Shown: positions 22,236-26,534 of the stretch, in pieces
Position numbering within the stretch: the first letter of the stretch is position 1
How the letters are laid out: each line of letters begins with the position of its first letter
Assembly: GCA_017438975.1 (NCBI GenBank)
Contig: JAFRUH010000006.1
Coordinates: forward strand, 1 to 64,000
DNA length: 64,000 nucleotides
DNA from: Bacteroidales bacterium
GTDB taxonomy: Bacteria; Bacteroidota; Bacteroidia; Bacteroidales; UBA932
Direction of reading: 5' to 3'
Program-made: the position numbers and the translations under genes
The notes under the pieces: model-generated
Databases searched by the model: none
Seen by the model: the letters and a program-made list of their open reading frames with translations, nothing else
Told to the model about the DNA's origin: nothing

Positions 22236-23609
22236 CTAAAGAATCCCCTTGTTCATCTCGTCGACCGGCTTGATGAAGCGGGAAAGATCCTCGTCGGAAA
22301 CGTGGTAATTCTGCATCTCGCCGGAGAAATACTGATCGTAGGCGGCCATATCGACGAAACCGTGACCGGACAGGTTGAAGAGAATCGTCTTCTGCTCGCC
22401 GGTCTCTTTGCACTTGAGAGCCTCCTGGATGGTAGCGGCGATGGCGTGGCAGGACTCAGGAGCGGGAATGATACCCTCGGTCCGGGCGAAGAGTACACCG
22501 GCCGCAAAGGAATCCTTTTGCTCGATGTCCACAGCCTCCATCAGGCCGTCCTTCATCAACTGGGAGAGGATGACGCCGGCTCCATGGTAGCGGAGACCGC
22601 CGGCATGGATGGACGCGGGCTTGAAGTTATGGCCGAGGGTATACATCGGAAGGAGCGGGGTCATCCCGGCTTCGTCGCCGAAATCATATTCGAATTTGCC
22701 CCGGGTGAGTTTCGGGCAGGAGTACGGTTCCGCAGCGATGAAACGGGTCTTCTTGCCTTCCTGGATGTTGTGGCGCATGAACGGATAGGCGATGCCGGAG
22801 AAATTCGAGCCGCCGCCGAAGCAGGCGATGACGATGTCCGGATACTCGCCCGTGAGAGCCATCTGCTTCTCGGCTTCCAGGCCGATGATGCTCTGGTGCA
22901 GGCAGACATGGTTGAGAACGGAGCCCAGGGCGTACTTGCAGTTCGGCGTCGTGACGGCAAGTTCGATAGCCTCGGAGATCGCGCAGCCGAGAGATCCCTG
23001 GTCATTCGGATTCCGGGTGATGATATCCTTTCCGGCACGGGTGGACATCGACGGGGACGGGGTGATGGCCGCGCCGAAGGTCTGCATGATGGAACGGCGG
23101 TAAGGCTTCTGCTCATAGCTGACCTTGACCATGTAGACGGCGCAGTCGATGCCGAACTTCTTGGTCGCGTAGCTGAGCGCACCGCCCCACTGGCCTGCTC
23201 CCGTTTCGGTCGTAAGGTTCGTAACCCCCTGCTCCTTGGCGTAATAGGCCTGGGCGATAGCGGAATTCAGCTTGTGGCTGCCGGCCGGGGACACGGACTC
23301 GTTCTTGAAATAGATGTGGGCCGGGGTTCCGAGCGCCTCTTCCAATTCATACGCACGTACGAGCGGGGTGCAGCGATAGGCGGCATACTGCTCGCGGACA
23401 GCCTCGGGGATGGGGATCCATTCATCGGTCTGGTTGAGTTCCTGGTCGGCGCAGGCCTTGCAGAAAATGGGATAGAGGTCCTCCGCCTTCAGCGGCTCGT
23501 GGGTCGCCGGATTCAGGAACGGGAGCGGCTTATTGGGCATGACCGCCTGGATGTTGAAGAAATGGGTCGGAATCTCGGACTCCGGAAGCAGGTACTTTTT
23601 CTGTTTCAT
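22236..23609 (-). CDS. trpB2: TrpB2-type tryptophan synthase beta-like protein
   Basis: A 457-residue PLP enzyme of the TrpB2 group, longer than classical TrpB and with the N-terminal extension of that group. It would join indole (or a related nucleophile) with serine to make tryptophan, usually without a TrpA partner. The PLP lysine is K113 in SPAGSHKLN, followed by TTETGAGQWGG. No trpA or other trp gene is in the window, so indole salvage is the likely role. The gene is preceded by a leader peptide with two adjacent Trp codons and an attenuator, which supports a true role in Trp supply. Confidence 0.92.
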   Translation of the reverse strand: MKQKKYLLPESEIPTHFFNIQAVMPNKPLPFLNPATHEPLKAEDLYPIFCKACADQELNQTDEWIPIPEAVREQYAAYRCTPLVRAYELEEALGTPAHIYFKNESVSPAGSHKLNSAIAQAYYAKEQGVTNLTTETGAGQWGGALSYATKKFGIDCAVYMVKVSYEQKPYRRSIMQTFGAAITPSPSMSTRAGKDIITRNPNDQGSLGCAISEAIELAVTTPNCKYALGSVLNHVCLHQSIIGLEAEKQMALTGEYPDIVIACFGGGSNFSGIAYPFMRHNIQEGKKTRFIAAEPYSCPKLTRGKFEYDFGDEAGMTPLLPMYTLGHNFKPASIHAGGLRYHGAGVILSQLMKDGLMEAVDIEQKDSFAAGVLFARTEGIIPAPESCHAIAATIQEALKCKETGEQKTILFNLSGHGFVDMAAYDQYFSGEMQNYHVSDEDLSRFIKPVDEMNKGIL

Positions 23610-23649
23610 GGCTTTTATTTGTTAAGTGTTTGACTTGAATTTCGGGTAT

Positions 23650-23682
23650 AAAAAAGAGGCGCGCTGCAAGTCAGCGTGCCTC
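23650..23682 (-). terminator. Trp attenuator: terminator stem (segments 3 and 4) before trpB2
   Basis: On the minus strand an 11-position stem (GAGGC-A-CGCTG with CAGCG-C-GCCTC, one mismatch, loop ACTTG; 23656-23682) is followed by six T residues (23650-23655). Its 5' arm and loop can pair instead with 23714-23725 (GCTGTAAGTCGC), about 12 bp with one bulge and one wobble. The two structures exclude each other. Confidence 0.8.
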
Positions 23683-23713
23683 CTATGGTCTACGATCCAC
23701 TATCTACGGCGAT

Positions 23714-23738
23714 GCGACTTACAGCTCGGAACTGCAAG
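23714..23738 (-). promoter_or_regulatory. Trp attenuator: segments 1 and 2
   Basis: On the minus strand CTTGCAG (segment 1, 23732-23738) can pair with CTGTAAG (segment 2, 23718-23724), and segment 2 overlaps the leader peptide stop codon. Segment 2 can also pair with GACTTGCAG (segment 3, 23664-23672) in the terminator 5' arm and loop. A ribosome paused on the Trp codons at 23743-23748 would cover segment 1 and free segment 2. A ribosome at the stop codon would cover segment 2. Confidence 0.75.
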
Positions 23739-23778
23739 GGCGCCACCAGAAGAAGTTATTGGACCTGTTCGTTTTCAT
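23719..23778 (-). CDS. trpL: Trp leader peptide of the trpB2 attenuator
   Basis: A 19-residue reading frame, MKTNRSNNFFWWRPCSSEL, ending in TAA. It has two adjacent Trp codons (TGG TGG, 23743-23748) preceded by two Phe codons. It lies 5' of an RNA able to form mutually exclusive antiterminator and terminator stems, in the arrangement of the enterobacterial trp leader. The start ATG lies only about 7 bases after the predicted -7 box, so the mRNA may be nearly leaderless. The peptide itself probably has no function beyond being translated. Confidence 0.78.
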   Translation of the reverse strand: MKTNRSNNFFWWRPCSSEL

Positions 23779-23785
23779 TCTACCG

Positions 23786-23817
23786 CAAAGATTGGCAAAG
23801 AATTTTAATTATGCAAA
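23786..23817 (-). promoter_or_regulatory. Predicted promoter of the Trp leader and trpB2
   Basis: On the minus strand TTTG (23814-23817) is followed after 20 bases by AATCTTTG (23786-23793), one mismatch from TAnnTTTG. It begins just after the stop codon of the exported FAD oxidoreductase. Confidence 0.5.
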
Positions 23818-23827
23818 TTTTTTACAA

Positions 23828-25723
23828 TCAAAATTCGATATTTTTTGGCTTCTTTAAATGGCCGCCTTCATTAAAATGCTGATTATCAGGAAGTTCTATA
23901 TCGTTTCGGGCAGCACCTTTTTTCATCAGCGCCTTCAGCTCCGGAAGATAGTGCTGATAAACGCCCCTCGGCGTCGTCCCTTTTTCCTTGCAGATGGAGG
24001 CGGCCATGCCGACGACTTCGCCCATCATCGCACCCGTACGCATGAGGCGTGTGGACCCGAGGGCGACATGGGTCGTCGAAATGTCGCGCCCGGCCATGAA
24101 CAGGTTGTCGATGTTCCTGGAATACAGGCAGCGGTACGGAGCGGCATAGGGATATATATGATTGCTCCGGGTATCTGCCTTGAACTCCTGCCCCTTGAAA
24201 CGGACCGAATTGAGGGAATCCGGGAAATGGAGGTCGAGATGCCAGGTCAGGGTGAAGGATGCATCTTCGTGGAAGACCTGCTTGTCGATATCGTCCTGCT
24301 TGAGGATATAATCTCCCATCAAGCGCCTCGATTCCCGCTTTCCTGCGACATAGGCGACCCAGCCGAGCGAAAGGTTCGCGTAATCCGCCTTCCGGGAATA
24401 ATGGTTCTTGAGAAAGCTCCAGTTGGAATAGACGACGAGAAGTCCGTAGTCACGGATCCGCTCGAAATCCCGGATCTGGTCGAGGTTCATCCCGGTCTCC
24501 CAGCGCCATTCGCCCATCTTGACCTTCTCGCAGTTCTCCTCCGTAAACTGGACTCCGTATTCGAATTCCGGGAAAGAAGTCCTTTCCGGCCCCTCCACGC
24601 TGTACCACTGGACGGAGGATCCCATCGTCAGGGCGTCGCCTTTCTCCGGTGCGAGGGCCTCGCCGAACTCATCCCGGCCTTCCCGGCCCATCCTCCAGTC
24701 CGCCCCGGCCATGTATCCCAGGTTAGCGTCTCCGGTACAGTCGGCGAAAAGGGGAGCCTTGAGCAGACGCTCCTCTCCGGTCTCGATGTGCCGGATGACC
24801 ACGGAAGCGATCCGGGATCCGTCCATATTGACCTTGACCGCGCGGAAACAGGGAAGATAGGTCAGACCCTCCTGGCCGCGGATGAAAGCCTCTTTCTTCT
24901 CATCTTCATAATTGGAAGCCGGCTTGGCGTTGCCTCCCTTCGAATGGCCGAACTCCCGGAGCATCCTGCCGAGGGCGGGATAAGGTGCCTGCTCGATCCG
25001 GGCGCCGAGATGGACCCGGATCTCCGAAGAATTGTTGCCGCCCGGGATGGGACGGTCGTTGACAAGGGCGACCTTGCAGCCGAAACGGGCGGCCGAGACA
25101 GCCGCACACATGCCGGCGATCCCGCCTCCGATGACGACGAAATCATAGTCTCCCCCGTCGGAAGGGTGAAGGGGAAGGGCTCCTGTCTGCCTGCGGAAAC
25201 CTTCGAGGGCATCCTTTTCCGCCGGAGGGACGGCTTCCTCTTCACGGGTCAGCCAGATGGCGTCGCAGCGCCCGTCGAAGCCTCCGAGGTCCGAAAGGGC
25301 GACCGTACAGGGTCCCGCGGCGAGTTTCCGGCTTCCGGCATACTGCCAGAACCAGCGGTCCCCTGTGGTGCCGAGAAGGGTCTTCAGGGGTTTTCCATTC
25401 AGTTTCACCCGGAAAGCGCCCGGGCCGTCCGCGGAAGTCCAGGGGGCCGTCCAGTTATAGGTCCGGACCCAGACGTGATAGATGCCGGGAACGGGAATCC
25501 CGACGGTGGTCGACGCGTCCTTCACCGGCACGCCCATGCCGTGGGCGATGAGGTAGGGAGAGCCCATGATGTCCATGAACTGCTGGTCGACGGACCATCC
25601 GCCCTTCTCCGCAAAACTCTCGGCCTCGATGAAGAGTCCCCCCTCGGGAAACGCCGGCGTCCGGGAAAAAGCCTCGGACGGGAAGGCCCATAAAGCAAAA
25701 AGAACGAGGACGAGCTCGTTCAT
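23828..25723 (-). CDS. Exported FAD-dependent oxidoreductase (copy 3)
   Basis: A 631-residue paralogue of the two tandem flavoproteins at 5458-9127. It has the same beta-rich N-terminal domain, GGGIAG at about 199-204 and a GGNNSSEIR motif. Start ATG 25723 was chosen because it gives a signal-like N-terminus (MNELVLVLFALWAFPSEAFS), which the other two copies lack; ATG 25759 or 25786 would add 12 or 21 residues. It lies 49 bases downstream of sdhC, where sdhA is expected in Bacteroidota, but it is not SdhA: the sdhA FAD-linking and substrate motifs are absent. Substrate unknown. Confidence 0.83.
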   Translation of the reverse strand: MNELVLVLFALWAFPSEAFSRTPAFPEGGLFIEAESFAEKGGWSVDQQFMDIMGSPYLIAHGMGVPVKDASTTVGIPVPGIYHVWVRTYNWTAPWTSADGPGAFRVKLNGKPLKTLLGTTGDRWFWQYAGSRKLAAGPCTVALSDLGGFDGRCDAIWLTREEEAVPPAEKDALEGFRRQTGALPLHPSDGGDYDFVVIGGGIAGMCAAVSAARFGCKVALVNDRPIPGGNNSSEIRVHLGARIEQAPYPALGRMLREFGHSKGGNAKPASNYEDEKKEAFIRGQEGLTYLPCFRAVKVNMDGSRIASVVIRHIETGEERLLKAPLFADCTGDANLGYMAGADWRMGREGRDEFGEALAPEKGDALTMGSSVQWYSVEGPERTSFPEFEYGVQFTEENCEKVKMGEWRWETGMNLDQIRDFERIRDYGLLVVYSNWSFLKNHYSRKADYANLSLGWVAYVAGKRESRRLMGDYILKQDDIDKQVFHEDASFTLTWHLDLHFPDSLNSVRFKGQEFKADTRSNHIYPYAAPYRCLYSRNIDNLFMAGRDISTTHVALGSTRLMRTGAMMGEVVGMAASICKEKGTTPRGVYQHYLPELKALMKKGAARNDIELPDNQHFNEGGHLKKPKNIEF

Positions 25724-25731
25724 TTTGCCTG

Positions 25732-25745
25732 TAAACAATTGTTTA
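25732..25745. promoter_or_regulatory. 14-base perfect palindrome before the exported FAD gene
   Basis: TAAACAATTGTTTA reads the same on both strands and sits 8 bases before the chosen start codon of the exported FAD oxidoreductase. It may be an operator half-site pair or chance AT-rich sequence. If translation starts at 25759 it would be inside the coding region. Confidence 0.3.
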
Positions 25746-25772
25746 ACAGTATCCGACATCACCGGATCCTTT

Positions 25773-26534
25773 CTAGAATTTCGCAAGGAGCGGAGCGGTC
25801 CACTGGTGCGAAGCGGTCATGCAGTTCGCCTCGACGAAAGCGTTGACGGCGGTGCAGACGAACAGGAGGATGATCAGGGTGCTCACGATCACGCTGATGA
25901 CCTTCAGGCGCGGGAGCCACTTCTGGCTGTTCCATCCGATCGTCTGGAACATGGACCAGAAACCGTGGTTGAGGTGCAGCCAGATGGCGACGAACCAGAC
26001 GATGTACAGGGCGAGGACCCACCAGTTGCGGAAGGTGGCGATCAGCAGGTAATACGGGTTCTCGGCCTCGCCGCCCATGAACTCGCGGAGCTGCATCTTG
26101 GCCCAGAAATGGGTCAGGTGGAAAGCCAGGAATCCGAGGATGATAATGCCGAGGACGGCCATGTTCTTGGCGGACCAGGAATCGTTCTGGGCCTTGGAGG
26201 GCACCTCGTAACGCTTCAGGCCACCCCTCTTCTTGATGTTCTCATAGCTGAGCCAGCAACCGTAGACGATGTGGATCAGGAAACCGAGAGCAAGGATCGG
26301 GACCATGATGTCGATGACCGGCGTGGACATGAAATCGCAGCCGAGCTGGAACCATCCGTCTCCCGTGGAGAAGCGGACAGCATCTTCGGCGACCTTGCCG
26401 AACTGGCCCTTCAGGGAGTCGATGACGGAGAAGAAATTGATGGTACCGTGGAGGAGCAGGAAGATGACGAGGAAAGCGCCGCTGACACTCTGGATGAACT
26501 TCTTGCCGATGGATGATGTAAGAAAGTTAGCCAT
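25773..26534 (-). CDS. sdhC: Succinate dehydrogenase/fumarate reductase cytochrome b subunit
   Basis: A 253-residue integral membrane protein with five hydrophobic segments, matching the single-subunit diheme cytochrome b of Bacteroidota-type quinol:fumarate reductase (MANFLTSSIGKKFIQSVSGA start; several membrane His such as HLTHFW and HLNHGFW for heme). It anchors the flavoprotein and iron-sulfur subunits and passes electrons from menaquinol to fumarate. Normally sdhA and sdhB follow it directly. Here the next gene is an unrelated FAD oxidoreductase, and no sdhA/B is in the window. Confidence 0.88.
   Translation of the reverse strand: MANFLTSSIGKKFIQSVSGAFLVIFLLLHGTINFFSVIDSLKGQFGKVAEDAVRFSTGDGWFQLGCDFMSTPVIDIMVPILALGFLIHIVYGCWLSYENIKKRGGLKRYEVPSKAQNDSWSAKNMAVLGIIILGFLAFHLTHFWAKMQLREFMGGEAENPYYLLIATFRNWWVLALYIVWFVAIWLHLNHGFWSMFQTIGWNSQKWLPRLKVISVIVSTLIILLFVCTAVNAFVEANCMTASHQWTAPLLAKF

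Follow-up and report, generated by a model that had tools for sequence, protein, structure and literature searches.

In the E. coli-type trp leader (RF00513), a leader ORF containing Trp codons precedes the trp operon, the RNA offers three alternative pairings (1:2, 2:3 and 3:4), and segment 2 lies near the leader stop codon; the leader ORF does not start directly at the transcription start. A Trp leader class has also been described in Bacteroidota, the Bacteroid-trp RNA of Weinberg et al. 2010 (PMC2864571), which is listed in Rfam as RF01692, 'Bacteroidete tryptophan peptide leader RNA', and was reported before the trp operon of Flavobacterium psychrophilum (PMC6414381). In Corynebacterium diphtheriae, a candidate Trp attenuator was reported before a second trpB copy, trpB2A; there, trpB2 is followed by trpA and lies beside a trpB1EDGC operon (PMC1262725). 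A report of trpB2 attenuation in Bacteroidota was not found in the open-licence literature, trpB2A of C. diphtheriae being the nearest case. The switch type is already known, and its use on trpB2 appears to have been little noticed.

The window analysed here is a stretch of 64,000 nucleotides from a Bacteroidales bacterium (contig JAFRUH010000006.1). On its minus strand, trpB2 is preceded by a leader of 19 codons with two Trp codons, by three alternative pairings and by a terminator with six T. Re-reading of the sequence confirmed all parts listed by a sequence-only reading, namely the leader, the two adjacent Trp codons, the segments, the six-T terminator and the overlap of segment 2 with the stop codon. 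The element has its Trp codons, its three pairings and the position of segment 2 in common with the E. coli-type leader; like Bacteroid-trp it is a Trp leader of Bacteroidota standing before a trp gene, and like the C. diphtheriae candidate it precedes a trpB2 copy, here one without trpA or a trp operon beside it. It is very probably a ribosome-mediated transcription attenuator which couples the expression of a lone trpB2 to charged tRNA-Trp following the E. coli logic. The features are as follows.

23786..23817, minus strand: Bacteroidota-type promoter, TTTG (23817..23814), 20 nt, AATCTTTG (23793..23786); from sequence and motif counts
23719..23778, minus strand: leader ORF, ATG to TAA, encoding MKTNRSNNFFWWRPCSSEL and a stop; from sequence
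23743..23748, minus strand: Trp codons 11 and 12, TGGTGG, the putative sensing codons; from sequence and alignment A1
23732..23738, minus strand: segment 1, CTTGCAG; from sequence and pairing analysis
23708..23725 (extended), minus strand: segment 2, GCTGTAAGTCGCATCGCC, with core CTGTAAG at 23724..23718; from sequence, pairing and covariation
23663..23680, minus strand: segment 3, GGCACGCTGACTTGCAGC; from sequence, pairing and covariation
23650..23683, minus strand: 3:4 intrinsic terminator, 11 pairs and six T; from sequence, fold and covariation
22236..23609, minus strand: trpB2, TrpB-like PLP enzyme of 457 aa, the putative regulated gene; NF009057 695.8 bits, TIGR01415 591.2 bits
22180..22187, minus strand: TATATTTG, likely own promoter element of frr; from sequence

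Segment 2 overlaps the leader stop codon and has either segment 1 or segment 3 as partner. Segment 3 comprises part of the terminator 5' arm, the loop and the inner 3' arm, and the use of the latter two by the antiterminator sets the window element apart from the E. coli-type leader. The terminator hairpin (23683..23655) has 11 pairs with one mismatch and a folding energy of -18.8 kcal/mol, its six T lie at 23655..23650, and trpB2 starts downstream at 23609. The 1:2 hairpin is extended at its base, where the Trp codons TGGTGG pair with TCGCCG, and the 2:3 duplex is longer than first described, as GCC at 23710..23708 can pair with GGC of the terminator 5' arm. From these parts we infer the dynamic steps and the effect on expression. 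With ample Trp-tRNA, the ribosome would reach the stop codon and mask segment 2, allowing the 3:4 terminator to form. With scarce Trp-tRNA, it would stall at codons 11-12 and mask segment 1, so that segment 2 would pair with segment 3, and RNA polymerase would continue past the 2:3 antiterminator into trpB2. If the leader were not translated, the 1:2 hairpin would form and termination would be the default.

An upstream TTTG element at a defined spacing is part of Bacteroidota promoters. In the window, AATCTTTG deviates by one mismatch from TAnnTTTG, the consensus quoted in PMC6414381, and the leader ATG follows 7 nt downstream. Transcription would start from this promoter-like motif just before the ATG, and translation of the leader would begin practically at the 5' end of the RNA, unlike in the E. 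coli-type leader.

For comparison, 80 TrpB2 loci were collected and two of them (L036, L056) were left out as their upstream DNA was absent. A WW or WWW leader and a hairpin with a T-rich tail stand before trpB2 in 54 of the 78 remaining relatives. No energy cut-off was applied for this count; 54 of the 55 hairpins, the window's included, reach -10 kcal/mol or lower. The 24 loci scored as leaderless include L038, whose WW ORF of 6 residues was taken as spurious. The motif [TAC]AnnTTTG lies at most 40 nt before the start of the leader in 42 of the 55 elements vs 2 of 55 base-shuffled controls. A second sample of 119 genomes of the window's family, which may share members with the 80 loci, contains 70 genomes with trpB2. 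Among the 67 upstream regions read, 43 have a WW ORF, and 40 of those 43 also a hairpin, weak in G071; G149, G163 and G079 were left out for want of an upstream reading, and for G078 and G115 the examined stretch covered just 60 and 153 nt. The three WW ORFs without hairpin by the scan belong to G092, G129 and G164, the latter two matching RF01692 weakly. The leader sequences form several classes (RTCSS, RLQL, PLQL, QNSRF, SDISGQ and more), which have the Trp codons and the pairing logic in common rather than sequence.

The conservation in related genomes on which the sequence-only reading had made its proposal depend was found in part. The main clade of the TrpB2 tree comprises 54 of 79 rows, and 49 of these 54 carry the leader. 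In the window's own genus, it is present in two of the seven trpB2-carrying genomes, the window's being one of the two, and the five others (G072, G091, G146, G157, G168) are without a WW leader and also without canonical trpB; therefore, the switch is not required for trpB2. By eye, these five genomes have a differing trpB2 version (starting with MKQKRFFLNEADLPKQW or similar) right after the end of the sdhC-like gene, and a hairpin is present there without a WW leader.

The leader RNA of the window (111 nt) folds as 1:2 plus 3:4 with -43.2 kcal/mol, corresponding to z = -3.0 against dinucleotide shuffles, 2 of 200 of which fold as well. The window's 2:3 duplex surpasses shuffles by a modest margin only (13 of 200 match it), and its nascent fold is equalled by 4 of 100. 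Chance tests on the window alone are modest, and the weight of the evidence lies in conservation, as in the ORF scan described below (47 of 72 vs 2 of 466). The nascent fold beats at least 95 of 100 shuffles in 49 of the 55 elements. When segment 2 of each element was paired with the terminators of the others, its own pairing averaged -21.4 and cross-pairing -17.2 kcal/mol, the window ranking 16th of 55; this test is only mildly informative because close relatives share the core.

For the nascent folds, the ribosome was assumed to cover 15 nt counted from the A-site codon. In the Trp-stalled state, at least six pairs between upstream RNA and terminator are predicted in 55 of 55 elements, a pair count without shuffle control, the energies having one. 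In the stop-codon state, at least 80% of the terminator is restored in 54 of 55 elements; 21 of the 55, the window included, still form at least six upstream pairs before the terminator is complete, and the off state is therefore blurred. At full length, the Trp-stalled fold holds the terminator in 46 of 55 elements, where the switch must therefore be kinetic and act by trapping. The window is not among these 46 and keeps its antiterminator. At least six antiterminator pairs are seen at full length in 11 of the 55 stalled folds, in L005 and L066 beside a complete or nearly complete terminator.

Compensatory changes, proposed by the sequence-only reading as a check, were found in the terminator and, once divergent relatives were added, in the 2:3 pairing. 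In alignment A1, consisting of 31 close elements, TGGTGG is invariant, the rows having been picked for WW. The terminator cells of A1 are paired in 93% of cases with 37 both-side changes, a number matched by 0 of 500 shuffles; five pairs show a both-side change, which 45 of 500 shuffles reach. Pairings 1:2 and 2:3 hardly vary in this closest set and are less informative there because the sequence itself is conserved. A covariance model, R1, was built from trpB2 leaders only, with the 1:2 and 3:4 pairings and without the 2:3 helix; its 53 matches minus three on the reverse strand gave an aligned set of 50 elements. The 2:3 antiterminator has 31 both-side cells in this set (shuffle mean 8.4; reached by 0 of 500) and six pairs with both-side change (14 of 500), the number of pair types being reached by 184 of 500 shuffles. 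For 1:2, 17 both-side cells (shuffle mean 5.0; 0 of 500) fall on just three pairs (180 of 500), and covariation supports this pairing weakly. As the rows are related and shuffling leaves kinship in place, these fractions are not probabilities. Segments 1, 2 and 3 have changed jointly to CTTACAAC, GTCGTAAG and CTTACGA in L005, and to CTTGCAAC, GTCGCAAG and ATTGCGAC in L020. Antiterminator and terminator are mutually exclusive structures, both supported by covariation. The earlier claim of a complete attenuator with E. coli logic before trpB2 is borne out by the conserved leader and terminator, the covariation of 3:4 and 2:3, and the stalled folds of all 55 elements.

In 48 further loci, 24 of them leaderless, R1 gave 11 matches: members of the RLQL class at E values between 2e-11 and 6e-6, and weak hits (0.011 to 0.31) to six elements from other classes. 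At E up to 1 it matched 0 of the 24 leaderless loci, and it also missed 13 of the 24 leader-bearing ones, which belong to other classes.

With the Rfam models, no leader family, T-box and riboswitch families included, was found at gathering cut-off in the window or in 11 leader loci. RF01692 (cut-off 49 bits) gave no window match at gathering, none at E up to 10 on 23600-23860, and none in the whole window genome at E up to 0.001 or 0.1. RF00513 scored 21.1 bits over the full model on the window element, below its gathering score of 41. Filing of the element under either family by score was rejected, both cut-offs being missed. The models nevertheless bridge both ways. In the 119 family genomes, RF01692 exceeded its cut-off in two and matched 18 at E up to 0.1; by coordinates, 10 of these matches stand before canonical trpB, five before trpB2 (G102, G117, G164, G129 and G131, all below cut-off) and three could not be placed. 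Conversely, R1 gave 10 matches in the same genomes, seven before trpB2 and three before canonical trpB (G142, G075, G088). In G075 and G088 the canonical trpB is followed by trpE, in G075 also by trpD; in G142 no trpE follows. The elements of G075 (contig C58) and G142 (C17) found by R1 score 49.5 and 46.5 bits with RF01692. Among 20 loci submitted, RF01692 was over cut-off before canonical trpB in two (L150, L144), and in the family sample a WW ORF and a hairpin precede 19 of 24 canonical trpB genes. The window element is related to RF01692 through such intermediates and is thus a distant relation of Bacteroid-trp whose target gene differs: trpB2 instead of the canonical trpB or trp operon found behind RF01692 elements over cut-off and of the trp operon behind RF00513. 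The suggestion that the element may be undescribed in Bacteroidota thus holds to the extent that RF01692 does not recognise it; as a Trp leader class of this phylum, RF01692 had already been described. RF01692 misses most of a widespread class, given that 40 of 67 trpB2 genes have a WW leader and hairpin vs two of 119 genomes over its cut-off.

It could be argued that the hairpin merely ends transcription of the FAD oxidoreductase or sdhC-like gene lying upstream, the WW ORF having arisen by chance. A hairpin with T tail indeed stands before trpB2 in the leaderless loci L006, L038, L041 and L047 and, by eye, in G072 and G146 of the window's genus, and the upstream ORF of the window ends at 23828, 145 nt before the hairpin. 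However, a scan of ORFs of at least 200 aa with 330 nt upstream in the TrpB2 loci found a WW leader with a hairpin of -10 kcal/mol or better before 47 of 72 trpB2-like ORFs vs 2 of 466 other ORFs, one of which we take to resemble canonical TrpB by its N-terminus. On these counts the explanation was rejected. It is made highly improbable also by the covariation of segments 2 and 3, by the promoter-like motif preceding the leader in 42 of 55 elements, and by the persistence of the arrangement in loci without a detected upstream sdhC-like gene. Sensing of Phe besides Trp, which would link trpB2 to the downstream Phe/Tyr genes, had been raised by the sequence-only reading on account of the FF codons. 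The window leader does read FFWW, Phe/Tyr genes lie downstream of frr, and F directly precedes WW in 30 of 55 leaders. FF itself, however, occurs in just 7 of 55 leaders, on which count the added Phe signal was rejected, and a third W in 19. Among the 80 loci, several of which end early, L010 is the only one with the complete Phe/Tyr block behind trpB2; L041, L047 and L066 have single genes of Phe/Tyr type there in the same orientation, and frr carries its own promoter-like motif. Phe sensing is accordingly very unlikely.

Transcription attenuators of the riboswitch and T-box kinds exist elsewhere, and the RNA might sense Trp or uncharged tRNA directly, the leader ORF remaining unread. The lack of T-box and riboswitch families at Rfam gathering scores in the window and 11 loci, and the retention of WW codons and pairing logic across very different sequence classes, leave this slightly less credible still. 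Finally, the leader peptide might have an additional role in trans, one that has been reported for the S. meliloti (Sinorhizobium) peptide peTrpL (PMC7298713). The analogy with peTrpL is the only argument for such a role; the peptide differs between classes except for the Trp run and the following Arg (45 of 55), and it varies together with the overlapping RNA pairing segments, which makes an action in trans extremely improbable.

The target of the proposed ribosome-mediated attenuator, the window trpB2, scores above the curated cut-offs of NF009057 and TIGR01415 (591.2 vs 518.85 bits for the latter). TrpB2 has a PALP domain, and the related solved chains 4qys, 6hul and 6hte are tryptophan synthase beta chains. 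Downstream of trpB2 lie frr and then genes for prephenate dehydratase, aminotransferase, prephenate dehydrogenase and DAHP synthase. Since frr has its own promoter-like motif and is rarely a downstream neighbour of trpB2 in the same orientation (only in L010 of the 80 loci, some of which end early), trpB2 is probably the only gene under control of the attenuator. Upstream, window positions 23828-26534 (minus strand) hold a cytochrome b558-type sdhC-like gene and then a FAD_oxidored protein (PF12831), sdhA and sdhB not being adjacent; in many relatives, trpB2 comes after an sdhC-like gene and pyrH is divergent. In L045 and L050, inverted repeats around GGGGACAGACCCC or GGGGACTGTCCCC lie between attenuator and trpB2 and, by eye, resemble small inserted repeat elements.

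The window genome (98.5% complete) gave no matches to TrpA, IGPS/TrpC, TrpD, canonical TrpB (E up to 1e-90) or tryptophanase. The same searches matched control genomes, E. coli always included, for TrpA, IGPS and TrpD in 14 of 14, for canonical TrpB in 13 of 14 and for tryptophanase in 4 of 14. The bacterium thus seems unable to make Trp de novo. Its three PALP proteins are TrpB2, a threonine synthase and a cysteate synthase-like protein. The gene of the last (G000:C17, locus L086 1387-2670, minus strand) is over the cut-off of TIGR03844 with 418 bits and could be linked to sulfonolipid or coenzyme M-type metabolism. The TrpB2 of Bacteroides thetaiotaomicron (BT_RS23500), likewise a Bacteroidota protein, aided an E. 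coli trpA mutant only when the wild type grew next to it; the authors attributed this to indole feeding, and the complementation fits conversion of indole to Trp (PMC11535334). A Thermococcus TrpB2 has been cited for indole salvage (PMC11085991). By analogy with the Bacteroides relative, the window TrpB2 would join external indole with serine, or a related donor, to give Trp. Given the absence of the trp and tna genes and these reports, indole salvage governed by the switch is therefore the likeliest role of trpB2.

Leader and trp operon were further compared across genomes. Among 50 of the 78 genomes, TrpA was found in 3 of 26 with the leader vs 14 of 24 without it. Split by ancestry, the sampled genomes of the main clade show TrpA in 1 of 21 with the leader and 1 of 5 without, those outside it in 2 of 5 and 13 of 19, respectively. 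In the family sample, a WW ORF precedes 5 of 12 trpB2 genes with canonical trpB in the genome vs 38 of 55 without. A simple rule tying the leader to a lost trp operon was rejected: the raw count fits it but is confounded with ancestry, and the association with missing TrpA is a trend only. Mapped on the tree of 79 TrpB2 proteins, the leader label has to change 10 times, and at least eight times by well-supported branches; therefore, leader and gene often part company. Within genus g16, one species has a WWW leader upstream of canonical trpB (L092, G142:C17:6599-6749), while other species have it upstream of trpB2 (G084, G102, G117); this suggests that a leader moved between genes. In L070 (8185-9409), a second WW leader (MQNICINIQSWRWWRTL...) with hairpin lies before a canonical-looking trpB downstream of trpB2. 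In L148 (G105), a leader-like ORF with a single Trp, YWRRCLQMSE, and a hairpin were seen by eye before canonical trpB, perhaps a degenerate or differently tuned attenuator.

As to origin, it is quite possible, though short of probable, that Bacteroidales having lost de novo Trp synthesis kept or re-hung an old trp-operon attenuator on trpB2, making indole salvage a Trp-starvation response via charged tRNA-Trp, with the leader ORF near the first transcribed base. What is new here is the target gene, a Trp attenuator being placed on a lone trpB2 and thereby on indole salvage. Arguments about the physiological job of TrpB2 have hitherto come from enzymology and from complementation. A conserved Trp-specific switch, in a genome without matches to TrpA, TrpC, TrpD and canonical TrpB, is independent evidence that the cell treats TrpB2 as a Trp synthase, and it predicts cross-feeding on indole from other gut bacteria. 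If the proposed origin is true, trpB2 would be the gene that really supplies these auxotrophs of gut and rumen with Trp, and they would use the indole of their neighbours on demand.
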